Assembly (NCBI RefSeq): GCF_022548875.1
Contig: NZ_JAKZEW010000016.1
Coordinates: 432 to 64,431 of the forward strand
Direction: 5' to 3'
Source: Glycomyces sp. L485
GTDB lineage: Bacteria; Actinomycetota; Actinomycetes; Mycobacteriales; Micromonosporaceae
Length of the DNA stretch: 64,000 nucleotides
Below, in pieces: positions 51,242 through 58,205 of the stretch; the stretch's first letter is position 1; each line of letters starts with the position of its first letter. The notes under the pieces were generated by a model. That model made no database searches. It was not told the DNA's origin and saw only the letters and a list, made by a program, of their open reading frames with translations. The translations under genes were made by a program, and so were the position numbers.

Positions 51242-52243
51242 TCACCGTTGATACCGCTTGGCGAGGTACTCCTCCACTGCTGCTCGGCTGCTCAGCCACC
51301 GGCCGGCCTCGTTCTTCGCCGCGCGAAGTCGGCCGCGGATGGCGGCGGCGCGAAGCGACGGCTCATTCACCGCATCGGTTGTGAGACTCGCCAACGGCAC
51401 CAGTTGCTCTCGCGCCGCGAGCGCGGGCAGGGCGAACCGCTCAATGCTGTCCAGCACCTGTCGGACCAGCATTTCGGCAAGTCTCGAGAGGTTTCCCGCG
51501 TCGGCGGCCTGCAGACAGTCGAGGTAGCGATCGCGATGCCGTTTCTCGATGACGATCGGCGTGAACCCCCGCCGGGCCAGCAGCAGATTGAGCAGCAGAC
51601 GACCGGTGCGGCCGTTCCCGTCAATGAACGGGTGGACCTGCTCGAACCGATGGTGAAGGTAGGCGAACCGCTCCATCACATGTCCACCTGGAAGTTCGTC
51701 CATACCGCAGGCCTCGTCGACCCAGGTTCGCATCTGCGAATCGACCTCGGTCCAGGACGGCGGCTTCATGCCGCCCGGGAACCTCGCTATCTGGTGACGC
51801 CGGAAATCGCCGGGGCCTTCTTGTTCGGAGGCGTGCGGATGCGGTTCGACCTCCCAGACGAGCCGCATGGTCTGGTAGTGGACATTGCGGACCTCCTGCA
51901 ATGTCAGCAGAGGCCGGTCCGCCTGTCCGGCGCCCCCGCGCCTCGCCTGGCTATAGACCCACTTTGCGGCGTCCGCGTACCCGCGTACCTCGAGGTATTC
52001 GACCATCGGCTTCGCATGGGTGGTCCGGCCCCGTTCGAGCAGTTGCTCCACATCCTCCAAGGCGAGCGTGTTGCCCTCGATGGCCGTGCTGTGGTGAGTG
52101 TCGCGGTGCCACAGGTCCGACCAGATGTCGGCGGCCTGCTCCTCACTCGGGAGGCCGCCGTAATCCTCATTGAGCTGGGCTATCGCAGCGTCGAGACGCT
52201 CGTACAACGAGCGCCGAGAGGGCCTTCCGCGGGGAGCCATCAT
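51242..52243 (-). CDS. Fic-domain protein with N-terminal self-inhibitory motif
   Basis: About 333 aa. Fic catalytic motif HPFIDGNGRTGR begins at H204, so the active-site His and the GNGR phosphate loop are intact. STAIEGN at about S52-N58 matches the (S/T)xxxE(G/N) inhibitory helix, making it a class II (self-inhibited) Fic. Such enzymes transfer AMP or another nucleotide part to hydroxyl residues of target proteins. C-terminal part resembles a winged helix. Start ATG 52243 or the adjacent ATG; GGGAGG is unusually close. It lies 98 bp downstream of the CHAT gene on the same strand, with a TACAAT-like -10 box between. Confidence 0.86.
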   Translation of the reverse strand: MMAPRGRPSRRSLYERLDAAIAQLNEDYGGLPSEEQAADIWSDLWHRDTHHSTAIEGNTLALEDVEQLLERGRTTHAKPMVEYLEVRGYADAAKWVYSQARRGGAGQADRPLLTLQEVRNVHYQTMRLVWEVEPHPHASEQEGPGDFRRHQIARFPGGMKPPSWTEVDSQMRTWVDEACGMDELPGGHVMERFAYLHHRFEQVHPFIDGNGRTGRLLLNLLLARRGFTPIVIEKRHRDRYLDCLQAADAGNLSRLAEMLVRQVLDSIERFALPALAAREQLVPLASLTTDAVNEPSLRAAAIRGRLRAAKNEAGRWLSSRAAVEEYLAKRYQR

Positions 52244-52341
52244 CCTCCCAAAAGAGTTCGGCAATGAAAGAATTATTGTATCGAACACATTTGATGATCT
52301 GGGTGAAGCGACCTCGGCAGGAAGGGCAACAAGCACCAGGG

Positions 52342-54879
52342 TCAAGACTGGTTTGCGATCCCGGATAACGCGCCGAAGCAGACGAAGGGGTGCCATGGGC
52401 GGTTCTCCCCCACTGCGGCGAGGGCTTCGGCCGGGCTCGCTCCTGTGGCGCAGCAGCGGTGGTAGTCGACCATCATCTCGGCGGCAAGATCGTCGGGGAC
52501 GCGGCCGAGGCTGGAGACGACGGTGGGGGTGCCGGCGTGAAGGAGAGCGGCGGTGAAACCGAGCGTCTCGTGCCCCACGGCGACGGTCGAACGCCCGAGA
52601 TCGCAGGAGGACAACACGACGTGCCCGGGCGGCTGGTCGAGGCCGAGGAGCTCATAAGCGTTGAGCGGGCCCTGGCGAAAGTCGAGCCGGGAGAACAGGA
52701 CGTTGTCGGGCTCATGGTGCCCGTGGGCGGCGAGGTGTGCCACCGAGGCGCCGTCGAGGGCTTTGAGGATCAGTTCGGGATCGGACTCGTCGGCGCGCAT
52801 GAGGTGCGCACCGGGGTATAGGTCCGCGATCGAATCGATCTCGGTTCCAGCGGTGTTCAGCGCGGGACCCGCGGCGACGAGCGCGGGTCCGTGGACCGCA
52901 GGGCGACTGACGGCGCGCATCCAAGCTTCGGAGGACGGAGCGACGGTCATTGGGCGCCCACGGAGCGGAGGCAGCAAAGGCCAAGGTACCCAGGCGATCT
53001 GGCTATGCGGCACGATGACGACCTGCCGGTCGCCGACGAACTCGCTGATCGGATACCAAATGCCGTCAGCAAGTGCCTCGGCATTGCGGCGCAGCGAACC
53101 TTCGACGCTGAGTCGCAGGCGATCAGGAAGCTTGAACGGCGCGCCCAGCGCATCGAGGTCCGCTCCGAGGCGACGGCCGGTCTCGGCGGCGGCATCGAGT
53201 TTCATCAGCTGAACATGCCGAATCGATCCCGCCCCGGCGAGCACCGCGCGCAGATAGCCGCCGACCTCGAAGAGGTTGACGATGACCGTGCCGCGTTCTC
53301 GCGCGCGCTCGTGAATTCGCTCGGCCGGGATTCGCTCGGACTGCTGACGCGGCCCCGGCTTCGTCCTGTCGTAAGCGCGGATCTCCTCTTCGAGTTCATG
53401 AACGCGCTTCAGCGCCTCATCCGCCTCCTTGCCCTCGACTTGCAAGTCCCACAGGCGCTGCCGCGCCTGGCGCAGACGCGCCAGAGCCTCGCGCGCCTCG
53501 GGGTCCGCACTCGGCTTCACAGGAGGAATGCGCAGGGCCTGTCCGCGACAACGCTCGGCCCATTCCAGCATCATCACGGGACTTCCACTCGTGGTGGCTC
53601 CAGTCAGTCCCATGCTCGCGAGCTGAATGCCGAGTGCCGACACGCCCGCCTGAAACTCCATGGAGCCGAACTGGGTCCGATACTCGTCGAGTAGGTTCAA
53701 GCCGGCCTGAAGCGCCGGGAACGGGTCCCGGTTCCGTGCCCGAGCCAGTTCGGCCAGCGCCAGATGCCGCGCCAAGTTCGCAGGAAGCTGCTCGTATCCC
53801 TGCGCCTCCAGCGGCCGAGAAAGCCGTTCCTGAGCGGTCTCCAGATCGCCTGCACGGATGTACGAGCGAGCCGCCAGAATCCTGGCCTGGTCTAGGCGCA
53901 GGGTCAGACCGCGGCTTTCAAGCGCGTCGCAGAGCCTGTCCACCTTGCTGGAAAAACCGGAGTCGTCACGTTCGGCGTCGAACCTTGCCTGGAGTACCAA
54001 TAGCTGCGCGAGAAAGGACCACGTCTCGATGCCTTGCGAGTACAGCGAATCCAGAGCCTGCCGCGCCCAGGTCTCCGCCATTTCGTAGTCGCCCGATTCA
54101 TGGGCGATCACGGCTCGGCGGTATTCGGTGAAGGCGGAGTTGCGAACATCGCCGTGCAGCCGCCAACTGGCGATGGCCTCATCGCAGTGCTCTCCGGCCT
54201 GTCGATTCATGCCGACTCGCATGAGCGCCTCCGCGTAGGAGCCATTGACAAATGCTTCCAGCTCGGGAGCATGCTCACGGTACAGAAGTCGCACTTGCTC
54301 GAATCCGGAGATCGCCCGAGTGATCTCCCCGAGATCCAGCCAGAACAGCGCCTCAGCATGTTGAGCCTTGGTTGAATGCACATGATGGCCCGCAACTGCG
54401 AACAGCTCACGGGCACGCTGTTCGCTCTTGAGCCCTTTCTGGAGCTCTCCAAGCTCTCGCCAGACCGCTGCCCGGTTGTGGAACAAAGCCCCGTAGAGCC
54501 AATCGGGCCCATGCTCCTCTAGCATGGGCTCTGCTTTTTCGAACCACTTCAGCGCCTCGGGTAGTCGGCCGTTCTGCCATAGGATGAAGGCTCTTTGATG
54601 GAGCAACATCCCGCGGTCTGCCGGTGTTGCACAAGAGTCAGCATGATCCAGCATCGCCAGCCCCGAAGGAGCGTCCCCGGAGAAAGCCAACCCGGGTGCG
54701 CGGATCGCCAGAATCATTACAGCCAGGCGAGCTGTGGCTGTGCCAGAAACTGGGGGATTCTCGGGATCCCATCCCAACAGCCCCAGCGCATGTTCAAGCA
54801 CTTCGGTCGCTTCAACGATTCGACCGCGTCGTTGCAGACGCTGACCACGTGAGAACAGTCGCCAGGCGCGGGGAAGCAT
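52342..54879 (-). CDS. TPR-CHAT caspase-like protease
   Basis: 845 aa. Residues about 1-450 are helical repeats of TPR type (for example RLPEALKWFEKAEPML, DYEMAETWARQAL), about 465-510 a coiled coil, and about 560-845 a CHAT peptidase domain. The Cys-His dyad is present: H719 in HLAAHGHHEPDN and C759 in LSSCDLGRS. CHAT proteases cut specific proteins, often under control of their TPR part, as in the separase clan and craspase (TPR-CHAT). No signal peptide: intracellular. ATG 54879 is 10 nt after the stop of the small upstream gene. Last of the four-gene S8-ECF operon. Confidence 0.9.
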   Translation of the reverse strand: MLPRAWRLFSRGQRLQRRGRIVEATEVLEHALGLLGWDPENPPVSGTATARLAVMILAIRAPGLAFSGDAPSGLAMLDHADSCATPADRGMLLHQRAFILWQNGRLPEALKWFEKAEPMLEEHGPDWLYGALFHNRAAVWRELGELQKGLKSEQRARELFAVAGHHVHSTKAQHAEALFWLDLGEITRAISGFEQVRLLYREHAPELEAFVNGSYAEALMRVGMNRQAGEHCDEAIASWRLHGDVRNSAFTEYRRAVIAHESGDYEMAETWARQALDSLYSQGIETWSFLAQLLVLQARFDAERDDSGFSSKVDRLCDALESRGLTLRLDQARILAARSYIRAGDLETAQERLSRPLEAQGYEQLPANLARHLALAELARARNRDPFPALQAGLNLLDEYRTQFGSMEFQAGVSALGIQLASMGLTGATTSGSPVMMLEWAERCRGQALRIPPVKPSADPEAREALARLRQARQRLWDLQVEGKEADEALKRVHELEEEIRAYDRTKPGPRQQSERIPAERIHERARERGTVIVNLFEVGGYLRAVLAGAGSIRHVQLMKLDAAAETGRRLGADLDALGAPFKLPDRLRLSVEGSLRRNAEALADGIWYPISEFVGDRQVVIVPHSQIAWVPWPLLPPLRGRPMTVAPSSEAWMRAVSRPAVHGPALVAAGPALNTAGTEIDSIADLYPGAHLMRADESDPELILKALDGASVAHLAAHGHHEPDNVLFSRLDFRQGPLNAYELLGLDQPPGHVVLSSCDLGRSTVAVGHETLGFTAALLHAGTPTVVSSLGRVPDDLAAEMMVDYHRCCATGASPAEALAAVGENRPWHPFVCFGALSGIANQS

Positions 54880-54889
54880 TCTTCACATG

Positions 54890-55423
54890 CTACAGCCGTA
54901 CTGCTGGCGTTACTACCACCGCCGGGAGCCCATCCCTCTGCAATTCCTCGCTCGGGCGGATGACCATCTGGAACATATCCCCATGAGGTAGGCCCTCGAG
55001 CACGAAACGGCCGCTCTCTTCAGTCGATGCCCTCCGAGTCCCTTCGGGACTTCGCAGCTCGACCTCATAAGTCCCCTCTGGACCGATCCACCCGTCGAGC
55101 CGCACTTCGCCTGCTGCGGAAGGTCGCGGCGTGACCATAACCGTCACAGTCTCACAGTCGAAGGTGATCGAAGCTGGATCACCTTGGCCGACAGCGAGTT
55201 CGGTTTCACCTCTTACGAGAGTGAACTCGGTCGGCCTTGAGATTCCGGCAACTCGCGCGTCGAGTTCGGCTTCTAGTTCCAGGGCGAACAGCACTCGTTC
55301 ATTGAGGTCGTCCGGGATCGGATCGTCCCTGCCGTGAAGCTCGTTGATCACCGTCATGATGCGCTGATCGCAGGAGTCCAACGGCTCGTTCTCACCCTGC
55401 CCGTCGTGTTCAGGCCGCGTCAT
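54890..55423 (-). CDS. Small acidic protein with beta-rich C-terminal domain, possible sigma partner
   Basis: 177 aa. Residues 1-60 are acidic and helical (DQRIMTVINELHGRDDPIPDDLNERVL); residues about 80-177 look like an Ig/carboxypeptidase-regulatory-like beta-sandwich (GPEGTYEVELRSPEGTRR, FVLEGLPHGDMFQMVIRP). No membrane segment and no zinc anti-sigma motif. ATG 55423 sits behind AGGAG inside the end of the sigma gene, a 14-nt overlap. That is the usual place of an anti-sigma gene, so it may bind or restrain the sigma factor, or be a protease substrate. Unrecognised family. Confidence 0.7.
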   Translation of the reverse strand: MTRPEHDGQGENEPLDSCDQRIMTVINELHGRDDPIPDDLNERVLFALELEAELDARVAGISRPTEFTLVRGETELAVGQGDPASITFDCETVTVMVTPRPSAAGEVRLDGWIGPEGTYEVELRSPEGTRRASTEESGRFVLEGLPHGDMFQMVIRPSEELQRDGLPAVVVTPAVRL

Positions 55424-56024
55424 CGTCCCGCTCCTCACCTCTGCCCCAGGCCGGATCGGCCAGCAGCGTCTTCCTCAACTTGTTCAGGCATCGGCCCCTG
55501 GTGGGGCCGATGCTTCCCCTCTTCATCCCCAGTGTTGCGGCGATGTCGTCATAGTCGGGCCGATCGGCAGCCGCCACATAGGCGAGCAGCCGTCGGCACC
55601 TCTCTGGCTGTGCAAGGAATGCGCGTCGGACGGCCTCGTGCTCGGTATCGCGGACCAGGCCGTCCTCAATACCCTCGATGGTCGGCTCCTGAATGTCGAT
55701 GGGATCGGCGACGATCTCGCGGCGGGAGCCGCCGATCAACCTCCAGGCTTCGCGTCTGACCGTAGTGAGCAGCCACTTCGTCAATGCTCGCGGTTGTTCC
55801 AACTCATTTCCCGGGCGCCACAGGCGAAGCCACGCCGTCTGCACGGCATCGGCGGCGCTCTCCCGATCGAGTCCGGCTCGACGCGCCGCTCTCCAGAGCA
55901 GCTCGTTGAGTTCCTCGACCAATGTCCGCTGGGCCTTCTTGTCACCAGCACGCGCAGCGAGATACAACTGTGCCCGTCTGTCATAGTCCACAGCAGCCAC
56001 CGAATGAGCCGGAATCGCGTTCAT
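55410..56024 (-). CDS. ECF RNA polymerase sigma factor
   Basis: 204 aa with both ECF regions: sigma-2 (about 25-95; AADAVQTAWLRLWRPG, LTKWLLTTVRREAWRLIG) and sigma-4 (about 140-190; RPDYDDIAATLGMKRGSIGPTRGRCLNKLRK). No fused C-terminal extension. The stop overlaps the next gene and the start is 9 nt after the S8 peptidase stop. It probably transcribes its own operon and a small regulon. The presence of two flanking protease genes is unusual. Confidence 0.92.
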   Translation of the reverse strand: MNAIPAHSVAAVDYDRRAQLYLAARAGDKKAQRTLVEELNELLWRAARRAGLDRESAADAVQTAWLRLWRPGNELEQPRALTKWLLTTVRREAWRLIGGSRREIVADPIDIQEPTIEGIEDGLVRDTEHEAVRRAFLAQPERCRRLLAYVAAADRPDYDDIAATLGMKRGSIGPTRGRCLNKLRKTLLADPAWGRGEERDDDAA

Positions 56025-56033
56025 TTCTTCAGG

Positions 56034-57572
56034 CTAACGGTTTTTCAACCGCTCCAGGGCCCCGAGTGCTCTTGCCGCGGCTTGAACGGAGTCCTCTGCC
56101 TCCGACGACCCGACCTCCGCCATCGCGTTCACCCAGAATGCCGCCGCGAGCGGCGCCGCGAACGATGTTCCACCCCATACCGCATAGCCCGACGAGAAGT
56201 CGTCGGGATCGTGGCTTTCGCGGTAGCGATCGGCGAAAGAAGCGCGAGATCGGCGGTCAGGCATCAGCGAGCCTTTTGCTTCGCACGGAAAAGTACTGAC
56301 GAGCCCAGCACCAGTCGCGAAGCAGGCGACCCACGGGCCGTCATTCGAGAACATCGCTACGTTCCGATTCGGATTGAGCGCGCCAACACTCAGCACCGGA
56401 GCCGTCCCTTCCGGGCGGGGATGTGCGGCGTACGCGGCCGGGTAGAACGGCCGATCCGAGGACTGGTTCCCGGCTGCCGCGACGACCGCGACTCCGAGAG
56501 AGGTGAGCCGTTCAATGGCCTGCCCCATCCAGCCTCCAGGCTGGTCTTCGGGATTCTCGTCGACGTAGCCGAACGCGAGCACTACGATATCGACGCTGAT
56601 CGCATCATCGTCACCGTCGCGGGCAGCTTCGACCTGATCGGCAACATGATGAAGTGCTCCGACCACCTCGTGCTCGTACGCCAGACCATCATTGTGGACG
56701 ACTCTCAGCGAATAGACCTGGGAATCAGGAGCGACCTGGCGGATCAGGCCGGTCATGAACGTGCCGTGACCGAAGTGCGTAGCGACCTCGCCAAGCAGCG
56801 TGTTCTCATGCACCGGGCCTTCCCACGGCTCGTTCAGCGGCAGTGCGGGACTGTCAGAATCCTTGCCGAACGTCTCTTGGAATGCTCGATCGACGAGGAC
56901 GAATGCATCCTCACCGGAGGTGAGGTCAGCGACATCGAATCCTGGATGCTCCTGGGGCACACCAGTGTCGAGAATAGCTACTCGGATGCGGCGGTCCATG
57001 GGCTTACGCGGTGGCATTGGATTCACCATGTCCACTGGGATCCGGCCGAGAGGCTTGAGTTTTCCTGAACCGGGTGGCTCGGCTTCGCTGATACCGGGTG
57101 TAGCACACGAAACGAGGAGATGCTCCAAATGAACCTTCTCGGTCAGTTCCGTGGACAGCTGCCCCTCGTCTGCGGCCGTATACAGCGACTGGAGCAGGCC
57201 CCAGGCGTCCACAGCTGCCGGGTCTCCGTGTCCGGTGAGGGAAACCGGCACGCGCTTCGCGCCGTGCCGCGAGCCCGCGTTACTCGCCGCTTGGCATTCG
57301 AGCCGCAGGCCGATGGGGCGCACCGCGCTTTCCAGTCTCCGCCGGGCTCCATCGTCGTCGAGGATTGATTCGTCGATGAGCAGTCGGTCATAGCGGTAGA
57401 TCGTGCCGACCGGCATCGAGGTGCCTGGCGCGCGAACGACCTGACCGGGGCGCAGCACGCGGCCGTGGTGGCGGTCGAGACTCATCGCGGGCAGGTTGGG
57501 CACACCGCTCATGCGGTCGCGCCCCGGGTTCGGCTCCAAGTGAGGTTCTTCGTTGGCGAAGACCAAACGCAT
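56034..57572 (-). CDS. Cytoplasmic subtilisin-like serine peptidase (S8)
   Basis: 512 aa. Catalytic triad D202 (VAILDTGVP), H269 (HFGHGTFMTG) and S470 (WGGTSFAAPLAAAF), plus the oxyanion Asn in AAAGNQSSD. There is no signal peptide or membrane segment, so it should be intracellular. About 190 N-terminal residues precede the catalytic domain and may be a prodomain or a partner-binding part. ATG 57572 follows AGGAG. First gene of the S8-ECF-small protein-CHAT operon, behind a perfect inverted repeat. Confidence 0.9.
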   Translation of the reverse strand: MRLVFANEEPHLEPNPGRDRMSGVPNLPAMSLDRHHGRVLRPGQVVRAPGTSMPVGTIYRYDRLLIDESILDDDGARRRLESAVRPIGLRLECQAASNAGSRHGAKRVPVSLTGHGDPAAVDAWGLLQSLYTAADEGQLSTELTEKVHLEHLLVSCATPGISEAEPPGSGKLKPLGRIPVDMVNPMPPRKPMDRRIRVAILDTGVPQEHPGFDVADLTSGEDAFVLVDRAFQETFGKDSDSPALPLNEPWEGPVHENTLLGEVATHFGHGTFMTGLIRQVAPDSQVYSLRVVHNDGLAYEHEVVGALHHVADQVEAARDGDDDAISVDIVVLAFGYVDENPEDQPGGWMGQAIERLTSLGVAVVAAAGNQSSDRPFYPAAYAAHPRPEGTAPVLSVGALNPNRNVAMFSNDGPWVACFATGAGLVSTFPCEAKGSLMPDRRSRASFADRYRESHDPDDFSSGYAVWGGTSFAAPLAAAFWVNAMAEVGSSEAEDSVQAAARALGALERLKNR

Positions 57573-57611
57573 GGGAGCTCCTCTCGTCTCGGGGTGTTAT
57601 GCGGTTGTTCG

Positions 57612-57648
57612 GTTGAGGAGAATGTTCCTCGGAGTCATTCTCCTCAAC
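57612..57648. promoter_or_regulatory. Perfect 13-bp inverted repeat upstream of the S8 gene
   Basis: GTTGAGGAGAATG (57612-57624) and CATTCTCCTCAAC (57636-57648), 11-bp spacer. It lies 40-76 bp before the ATG. There is no T-run, so a protein-binding site or leader hairpin is more likely than a terminator. Confidence 0.6.
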
Positions 57649-57851
57649 TTTCGCCGGGTTGTGGGTCCCGGCGGTATTCGATTTGTCGGGGGGCACTCAA
57701 GCCCAGAATGCGGCTGTCGTCACAGGCTGGACTGTTTCAACCGCGTTCTTTACGGTAAGAGACGGTCGATCGCCCGGAGATACACGCGGCTGCTGATTTT
57801 CTGCGATCGGCAGGCACGTGGAATCAGCTCCCGCTCCTGCGGACACGAAGA

Positions 57852-57902: not shown

Positions 57903-58163
57903 CTAGTCCCTGCTCGGCTCGTCTTCCCAGGTCTCGACGTCGAACTCGCCGTCCCTGACGCCTTCGACGAACGCCTCCCACTCCGAGGGCGTGTAGATCA
58001 GGATCTCGCCCTCGGGCTGTTCGGCCATGCGCAGTGCCACGAGGCCGTTGTCCGCGTAGCCGATCTCCAGCGCCGCCGGGGTCCCGTCCTCGTGCGTCGT
58101 GCGTTCCCAGCGGGCATTCGCCGTGTCGAACTCGCCCTTCAGGGGGTGGTCACGCTTTGTCAT
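57903..58163 (-). CDS. DUF397-domain protein
   Basis: About 86 aa. The pattern LVALRMAEQPEGEILIYTPSEWEAFVEGVRDGEFD is the DUF397 core. In actinomycetes DUF397 genes usually come with an adjacent XRE helix-turn-helix gene (BldB/WhiJ-type sets); no such partner is seen here within the window. Start ATG 58163 or GTG 58166. Confidence 0.82.
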   Translation of the reverse strand: MTKRDHPLKGEFDTANARWERTTHEDGTPAALEIGYADNGLVALRMAEQPEGEILIYTPSEWEAFVEGVRDGEFDVETWEDEPSRD

Positions 58164-58177
58164 CACCCAAGCATAAA

Positions 58178-58205
58178 GGGCTCGGGCCTGTGTCGGCCCG
58201 AGCCC
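58178..58205 (-). terminator. Terminator of pruA
   Basis: GGGCTCGGGCC (58178-58188) pairs perfectly with GGCCCGAGCCC (58195-58205), followed leftward by TTTATGC. It lies between the pruA stop and the DUF397 start. Confidence 0.85.

Follow-up and report, generated by a model that had tools for sequence, protein, structure and literature searches.

A conserved actinobacterial module of subtilase, ECF sigma factor, small protein and TPR-CHAT protease as a possible autoregulated sigma switch

What might bring two proteases, a sigma factor and a small protein of no recognised family together in one tightly packed gene cluster? The question is raised by a locus of Glycomyces sp. L485, which lies in a 64,000 nt stretch of contig NZ_JAKZEW010000016.1 (positions 432 to 64,431; the whole stretch is called the window here) and encodes an S8 family subtilase, an extracytoplasmic function (ECF) sigma factor, the small protein and a TPR-CHAT protease. 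The answer preferred here, to which we give a probability of about one half, is an autoregulated, cytosolic, protease-gated sigma switch that runs from the CHAT protease through the small protein and the sigma factor to the subtilase. Within this scheme we infer the cleavage of the small protein by CHAT, the inhibition of sigma by the small protein, the signal, and the role of the subtilase as output. All four genes are on the minus strand, spaced by a 9 nt gap, a 14 nt overlap and a 10 nt gap, just as described in an earlier note made from the letters of this DNA alone. The gene families named in that note also hold (Pfam and NCBIfam return Peptidase_S8, ECF sigma, no family above cut-off and TPR-CHAT for the four proteins in turn), and the subtilase triad and CHAT dyad that it had seen as intact are both conserved across homologues. 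The genes and the residues that bear on the argument are as follows.

56034–57572, minus strand: S8 family subtilase, 512 amino acids (aa), first gene of the operon (Pfam PF00082, 8e-21; catalytic triad conserved)
55410–56024, minus strand: ECF sigma factor, 204 aa, ECF54-type by gene context (Sigma70_r2, 3e-8; TIGR02937, 1e-13)
54890–55423, minus strand: small protein, 177 aa, proposed anti-sigma factor and CHAT substrate (AlphaFold model, Foldseek, adjacency to sigma)
52342–54879, minus strand: TPR-CHAT protease, 845 aa, proposed sensor that cuts the small protein (Pfam CHAT, 1.5e-27, plus TPR)
55211–55213, minus strand: codon of Arg71 in the linker of the small protein, proposed scissile site between R and G (homologue alignment)
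52723–52725, minus strand: codon of the CHAT catalytic His719 (invariant, 29/29)
52603–52605, minus strand: codon of the CHAT catalytic Cys759 (invariant, 29/29)

In a simple hydropathy scan none of the four proteins showed a stretch resembling a signal peptide or a membrane span, and for this reason the system looks cytosolic. The subtilase triad (D202/H269/S470) is kept in 28, 28 and 27 of 28 clusters, respectively. Matches of the sigma factor to Sigma70_r2 and TIGR02937 span residues 31–187 of a protein without large extra domains; region 4, which has no Pfam match, carries a GSxGPxRGRCL motif that is conserved in the alignment. An alternative GTG start at 55438 would lengthen the small protein to 182 aa.

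The small protein is present in all 22 genomes of the genus set (the source genome and 21 genus mates), in 13 of the 38 genera of an order sample (profile search), and in at least 33 of 396 genomes and at least 20 of 237 genera of a phylum sample, where the counts are lower bounds and nine candidates were scored per genome. Among 62 named loci the order S8-sigma-small-CHAT is seen in 43 and sigma-small-S8-CHAT in 10, giving 53 loci with S8. Seven have sigma-small-CHAT without S8 (six from Amycolatopsis, one from Streptoalloteichus), one runs off its contig, and one, from Microlunatus, has only the sigma-small pair. With 43 of the 62 sharing the order of the window, the four-gene arrangement exceeds chance, and the proposal that these genes make up one module stands: the order is not found only in this genome. 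In 18 more distant loci (L118–L135, from 16 phylum-sample genomes positive for the small protein plus two others) the same genes are arranged in other ways, and in 7 of the 18 CHAT and S8 are on opposite strands.

The small protein supplies the candidate point of control. Its AlphaFold model, with a predicted local distance difference test (pLDDT) score of 83, has helices at residues 17–33 and 40–61 and an Ig/FN3-like domain at 86–157 (FN3 and Ig matches in Foldseek), while residues 62–75 fall below pLDDT 50 and are predicted to form a disordered linker. Arg71, in this linker, is invariant in 83 of 83 aligned homologues and in 41 of 41 clusters of less than 70% identity; the 83 are the window protein and 82 others, drawn from 84 small-domain matches in loci L031–L135 less one duplicate and one short fragment (L092). 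Around Arg71 the linker is variable in both sequence and length, the residue that follows is G (21 clusters), S (11), A (7) or T (2), and position P2 is V in 25 clusters and A in 11. An invariant Arg in a disordered, variable linker, followed only by G, S, A or T, makes Arg71 a likely cleavage site, as judged from sequence and model. It is retained in the small proteins of modules without S8. The small domain lies next to sigma, the sigma gene ending just before it, at 61 of the 63 domain matches in named loci; of the two exceptions, one (L092) is the second piece of a copy broken by a frameshift and the other (L075) lies at the edge of a contig. In L118 and L119, each 19 kb long and with S8-CHAT pairs in tandem, two and three small-protein copies accompany a single sigma gene, which fits a small protein that is the substrate of a protease pair and also serves the sigma factor. 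The best Pfam scores of the protein, below cut-off, are to TrkA_C (E 0.056) and CarboxypepD_reg (E 0.1), and a PDB sequence search returned only short, chance-level stretches (E 0.025 and 0.031).

The CHAT protease, with its dyad (H719/C759) invariant in 29 of 29 aligned sequences, was modelled at pLDDT 89. The nearest Foldseek match was separase (E 2.5e-16, Template Modeling (TM)-score 0.47), a protease that cleaves after Arg. Csx29 was also matched (8eey, E 2.6e-15; 7y84, E 4e-13; TM 0.41–0.43), and the separase and Csx29 matches run over long alignments with TM-scores of only 0.43–0.47. Rap-type repeat proteins were matched at E 1.3e-7. A loop beside Cys759 (residues 764–771) falls below pLDDT 50 in the model and may be disordered in the manner of proteases that become ordered on activation. 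In a PDB sequence search, TPR proteins are among the matches listed (60 of 89), and the first 246 residues alone gave no match.

CHAT and the small protein also travel together. With thresholds of E ≤ 1e-8 for the small protein and E ≤ 1e-40 for CHAT, CHAT was detected in 36 of 36 genomes with the small protein versus 8 of 25 without it (61 genomes; 22 of the 36 belong to one genus), and counting by genus gives 13/13 versus 8/25 (Fisher, 6e-5). For four sigma-small pairs (L089, L122, L129, L135) the stretch read contains no CHAT, and in all four genomes a strong CHAT lies elsewhere, in one case adjoining an S8 relative. In genome G101, where L127 holds an orphan small gene, a different contig carries the complete CHAT-S8-sigma-small set.

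What the sigma factor might transcribe is suggested by a motif, TGTATC-N17-CTCTT, seen in the alignment of the 22 upstream regions; in the window it is placed as follows.

57757–57784, minus strand: promoter-like site TGTATC (57779–57784)-N17-CTCTT (57757–57761), proposed target of the module's own sigma factor

Searched for within 900 nt upstream of the first module gene, GTATC-N17-CTC[CT] was found in 39 of the 62 named loci, comprising 20 of 21 from Glycomyces and 19 of 41 others. In 200 dinucleotide shuffles the means were 0.05 of the 21 and 0.095 of the 41 loci, and never more than one; on the reverse strand of these regions the pattern occurred in 5 of 62 loci, each of which has the forward site too. 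The 19 come from Amycolatopsis, Phytohabitans, Micromonospora, Isoptericola, Flavimobilis, Pilimelia, Microlunatus, Actinorhabdospora and bins; loci with the site are not independent, though these 19 span many genera. Across the Glycomyces genomes the strict pattern has 23 matches, spread over 21 of 22 genomes, versus one in the backward control; the module accounts for 21 of the 23, and near-confinement to it therefore points to autoregulation. The simplest reading of these sequences is that the module's own sigma factor would recognise the GTATC-N17-CTC[CT] promoter and drive its own gene along with those of its small partner and S8. In distant genomes it is the sigma, S8 or small gene that the site directly precedes, and at L127, L128 and L130 it starts 82–93 nt upstream of the small domain; since it directly precedes the small gene there, the proposed inhibitor would be under the control of its own sigma. 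CHAT is inside the driven operon in Glycomyces and is transcribed away from the site in several distant lineages, where it may be expressed apart from that operon, as for a standing sensor.

Further targets of the site were also considered. Other conserved targets in Glycomyces were rejected, because a relaxed pattern gave 84 matches in the 22 genomes versus 138 in the backward control. In twelve other genomes, selected for carrying the small protein, there were 55 matches versus 24 in the control, and 12 of the 55, at distinct places, precede S8, sigma or the small gene. Other candidates are leads only: a patatin phospholipase (L195, 3035–4060), a gene divergent from S8 whose product is weakly trypsin-like, below the Pfam cut-off (L206, 1471–2949), and a UDG-domain protein (L201, 3005–4822). 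An AAA-LuxR regulator (L125, 12916–14853) is the only one that recurs, in a single genus where 3 of 6 genomes have it. In five loci (L061, L063, L064, L065 and L087) a reverse-strand GTATC near the forward site makes an inverted GATAC...GTATC pair, a possible operator. A divergent coding target was considered for the Phytohabitans-type loci and dismissed, as the reverse site there points into a STAS-like gene (named by eye) that is read in the opposite direction.

The subtilase can be missing from the module: in the genomes of three of the seven S8-less modules (L069, L071, L082) a single-sequence search found no good relative of the window S8. In several distant genomes a sigma-type site lies directly upstream of S8. 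Because S8 can be missing, and because it can stand directly behind such a site, it is better seen as an output than as an upstream maturase, presumably a protease induced by the sigma factor.

Put together, the proposed switch would work as follows. At rest, the small protein would hold the ECF sigma factor by way of its N-terminal helices. A signal bound by the TPR part would activate the Cys-His dyad of CHAT, as its fold and family suggest, and CHAT would cut the small protein after Arg71, where conservation and predicted disorder place the site. The cut would part the Ig-like domain from the helices, and the inhibitor would be freed or destabilised. Free sigma would then transcribe from GTATC-N17-CTC[CT] promoters, those of its own module and perhaps, in some lineages, of further genes. 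In Glycomyces, S8, sigma, small protein and CHAT would all be induced together; newly made small protein would reset the switch, and the subtilase would be its enzymatic output.

Several points weigh against this scheme. Neither Pfam nor NCBIfam, anti-sigma families included, gives the small protein a family above cut-off. The invariance of Arg71 was read from an alignment, and aligning tends to bring like residues together; Arg71 is also kept where CHAT does not adjoin, so that any link between the two is one of genome and not of neighbourhood. A strong CHAT still occurs in 8 of the 25 genera without a detected small protein. An excerpt of PMC11106740 describes Craspase sites as not conserved between orthologues, and CHAT proteases therefore need not prefer Arg. 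The assignment of the promoter to the module's sigma draws on conservation, and 23 of the 62 loci yielded no site (14 of these from Actinoplanes/Paractinoplanes or Micromonospora), a looser pattern adding two matches among 21 of the 23; the upstream stretches of L054, L068 and L075 are shorter than 900 nt. For the reverse-strand sites of the five loci, no coding target was found.

Other readings of the same genes must be set beside this one. The gene neighbourhood is already known as ECF54, of which the locus is very probably a member: as described in PMC8999054, this group has carboxypeptidase, subtilase and CHAT genes beside an ECF sigma, and section 3.3 of that paper suggests, with reference to the ECF reclassification and a survey of actinobacteria, that control is proteolytic and involves no anti-sigma factor. 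The subtilase and CHAT context is present here, and the carboxypeptidase-type match of the small protein is at no better than E 0.1. If, as published, the proteases act on sigma itself, the small protein would be an accessory; we consider this unlikely, as it leaves unexplained the constant small-sigma adjacency, the disordered linker with its invariant Arg, and the extra small copies that accompany extra S8-CHAT pairs in L118 and L119. An improbable alternative is that the small protein is a positive partner of sigma, a co-activator or adaptor, with the invariant Arg as a binding residue. An invariant Arg can indeed be a contact, and no anti-sigma family was matched, but Arg71 lies in a disordered, otherwise variable stretch and is followed only by G, S, A or T, which is the pattern of a cleavage site.

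Cleavage might also be secondary, if CHAT, alone or with the small protein as adaptor, sequestered sigma through its TPR part until a signal released it. CHAT is present in every small-positive genome examined, and the transmembrane anti-sigma DdvA is among the top 20 Foldseek matches of the CHAT model (8rw5, E 5.5e-13; 8rot, E 1.9e-12). This is quite unlikely in our view, since the DdvA match has a TM-score of 0.31 and a root-mean-square deviation of 25 Å, probably arising from helical repeats, and a pure binder would have no need of a dyad that is invariant in 29 of 29 sequences. The earlier note had placed the subtilase at the head of a protease relay, in which S8 would mature CHAT or cut the small protein and CHAT or S8 would then control sigma. 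A protease-controlled module around a sigma factor is the part of that idea that finds support; the upstream role of S8 is rather improbable, for although S8 is present in 53 of 62 named loci with its triad conserved, it is missing in 7 of 62, where Arg71 persists and where the three genomes searched, of those seven, have no good relative, and in distant genomes it comes immediately after the sigma-type site, where an output would be expected.

Between the promoter-like site and the first gene lies a leader that is conserved within the genus.

57573–57756, minus strand: conserved 5' leader, 184 nt, from the promoter-like site to the S8 start, with predicted hairpins (22 Glycomyces leaders aligned)
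57612–57648, minus strand: leader hairpin GUUGAGGAGAAUG...CAUUCUCCUCAAC (predicted energy, 22/22 leaders)

Glycomyces leaders are about 190 nt long, three being longer, and a hairpin is predicted in 22 of 22, at −11.6 kcal/mol or lower (a prediction without shuffled control). Its left arm resembles the Shine-Dalgarno GAGGAG, and its right arm, CUCCUC or near to it, could pair with either. One base pair, of alignment columns 15 and 46, shows compensatory changes (C-G in 16, G-C in 5, U-G in 1), and a conserved CGCAU, altered in L048 and L035, could base-pair with AUGCG at the start codon. No Rfam match was found for the leader. The leader structure may add a layer of translational control.

The Glycomyces module is chromosomal and follows a P5C dehydrogenase gene in 21 of 21 named loci. 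Genes for DUF4129 and MoxR-like proteins come after it in 19 of 21, one exception being cut by a contig end. In the window the adjoining genes encode P5C dehydrogenase, Fic, DUF4129 and a MoxR-like ATPase (the last named by eye). A small minus-strand gene at about 57943–58180, between P5C dehydrogenase and the promoter, resembles DUF397 proteins by eye. The slot directly behind CHAT is variable in Glycomyces, being filled by Fic, by PIN with a helix-turn-helix (L033) or by MFS (L049). The Fic gene (51242–52396) was considered as a fifth member and set aside, since only L032 and L049 of the 21 Glycomyces loci have a co-linear relative; weak Fic matches on the other strand occur in two further loci (L045, L048). 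A CHAT-like fragment lies behind the Fic gene of L032 (14115–14282), and the CHAT gene of Glycomyces sambucus (L046, 10548–13045) is split over two frames, by sequencing error or decay.

The constant chromosomal place in Glycomyces argues that the module is not a mobile island, and a defence role in that form finds no support, a defence function as such not being thereby rejected. One pattern scan of viral contigs gave no confirmed relative, and a plasmid collection gave no true plasmid, the single match being an 11.85-Mb record. In a phage collection the one match (L207, MT838002.1) is a 7.5-kb faecal scaffold, unverified and labelled 'Bacteriophage sp.', that carries S8-sigma-small-CHAT and is probably a mislabelled bacterial contig. 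PADLOC defence models matched S8 through a general subtilase model (E 1.5e-6) and weakly through IetS (E 0.19), and gave nothing for the other three proteins. No CRISPR or gRAMP/Cas7-11 genes were seen among the module's neighbours (about 48.9–61 kb of the window).

Circuits of this general kind are known from other systems. In the CalpL-CalpT-CalpS system of type III CRISPR, a protease cuts an anti-sigma factor and frees an ECF sigma, much as proposed here; it is a SAVED-Lon protease activated by cyclic oligoadenylate, with a fold unrelated to CHAT. Another is the Craspase/CASP arm of type III-E, as described in excerpts of PMC10028731 and PMC11106740, in which Csx29 cuts Csx30, the inhibitor of an ECF sigma (PMC10028731). 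TPR-CHAT, a protein cut in two (proposed here) and an ECF sigma are shared, the folds of the two proteases are related, and sigma motifs lie in the system's own locus in both cases. The two differ in that no gRAMP/Cas7-11 or CRISPR genes are seen beside the present module and that a subtilase is added. Whereas Csx30 sites are described as variable, the proposed site in the small protein is invariant, and that protein, of 177 aa with an Ig/FN3-like C-terminal domain, has no NCBIfam match. The CHAT protein scores 13.1 bits against the NCBIfam model for Csx29 (NF041237, cut-off 300). By analogy, the module may work like Csx29-Csx30-CASP-sigma, but it is no member of that system. We would suggest only tentatively that it is a CRISPR-free, chromosomal and perhaps ancestral counterpart of the Craspase arm, a bacterial two-protease cascade joined by transcription, in which a cytosolic, separase-like protease would sense a ligand through Rap-like repeats and cut an Ig-tailed anti-sigma at the invariant Arg, and the freed sigma would switch on its own operon with the subtilase as executioner. 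Control of ECF sigma release by proteases is likewise found in RseA/DegS and RsiW, RseA being cut in a transmembrane segment according to the passage in PMC10028731; for the present module the hydropathy scan showed no membrane span. The EACC2-caspase conflict systems, which also have ECF sigma and TPR genes, are of another make, built on EACC2 and TRADD-N domains with variable C-terminal parts, and the passage of PMC8195603 that describes them names neither a subtilase nor a small Ig-tailed protein.

Compared with the published account of ECF54, which has no anti-sigma factor, the small protein is here proposed to be both inhibitor and substrate, and a search of titles and abstract openings (most subscription papers and bioRxiv lying outside it) found no description of it in either role. 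What we propose as new beyond ECF54 is the promoter-like site, the autoregulation, the architecture and cleavage site of the small protein, and its co-occurrence with CHAT. Only a guess at the regulation of ECF54 was found in print, and a named substrate, site, promoter and output make that regulation directly testable. If the proposed switch is real, the type III-E cascade of CHAT, substrate and sigma would be one form of a device that actinobacteria also use free of CRISPR, and an Arg-directed CHAT protease would be on offer together with its natural substrate.

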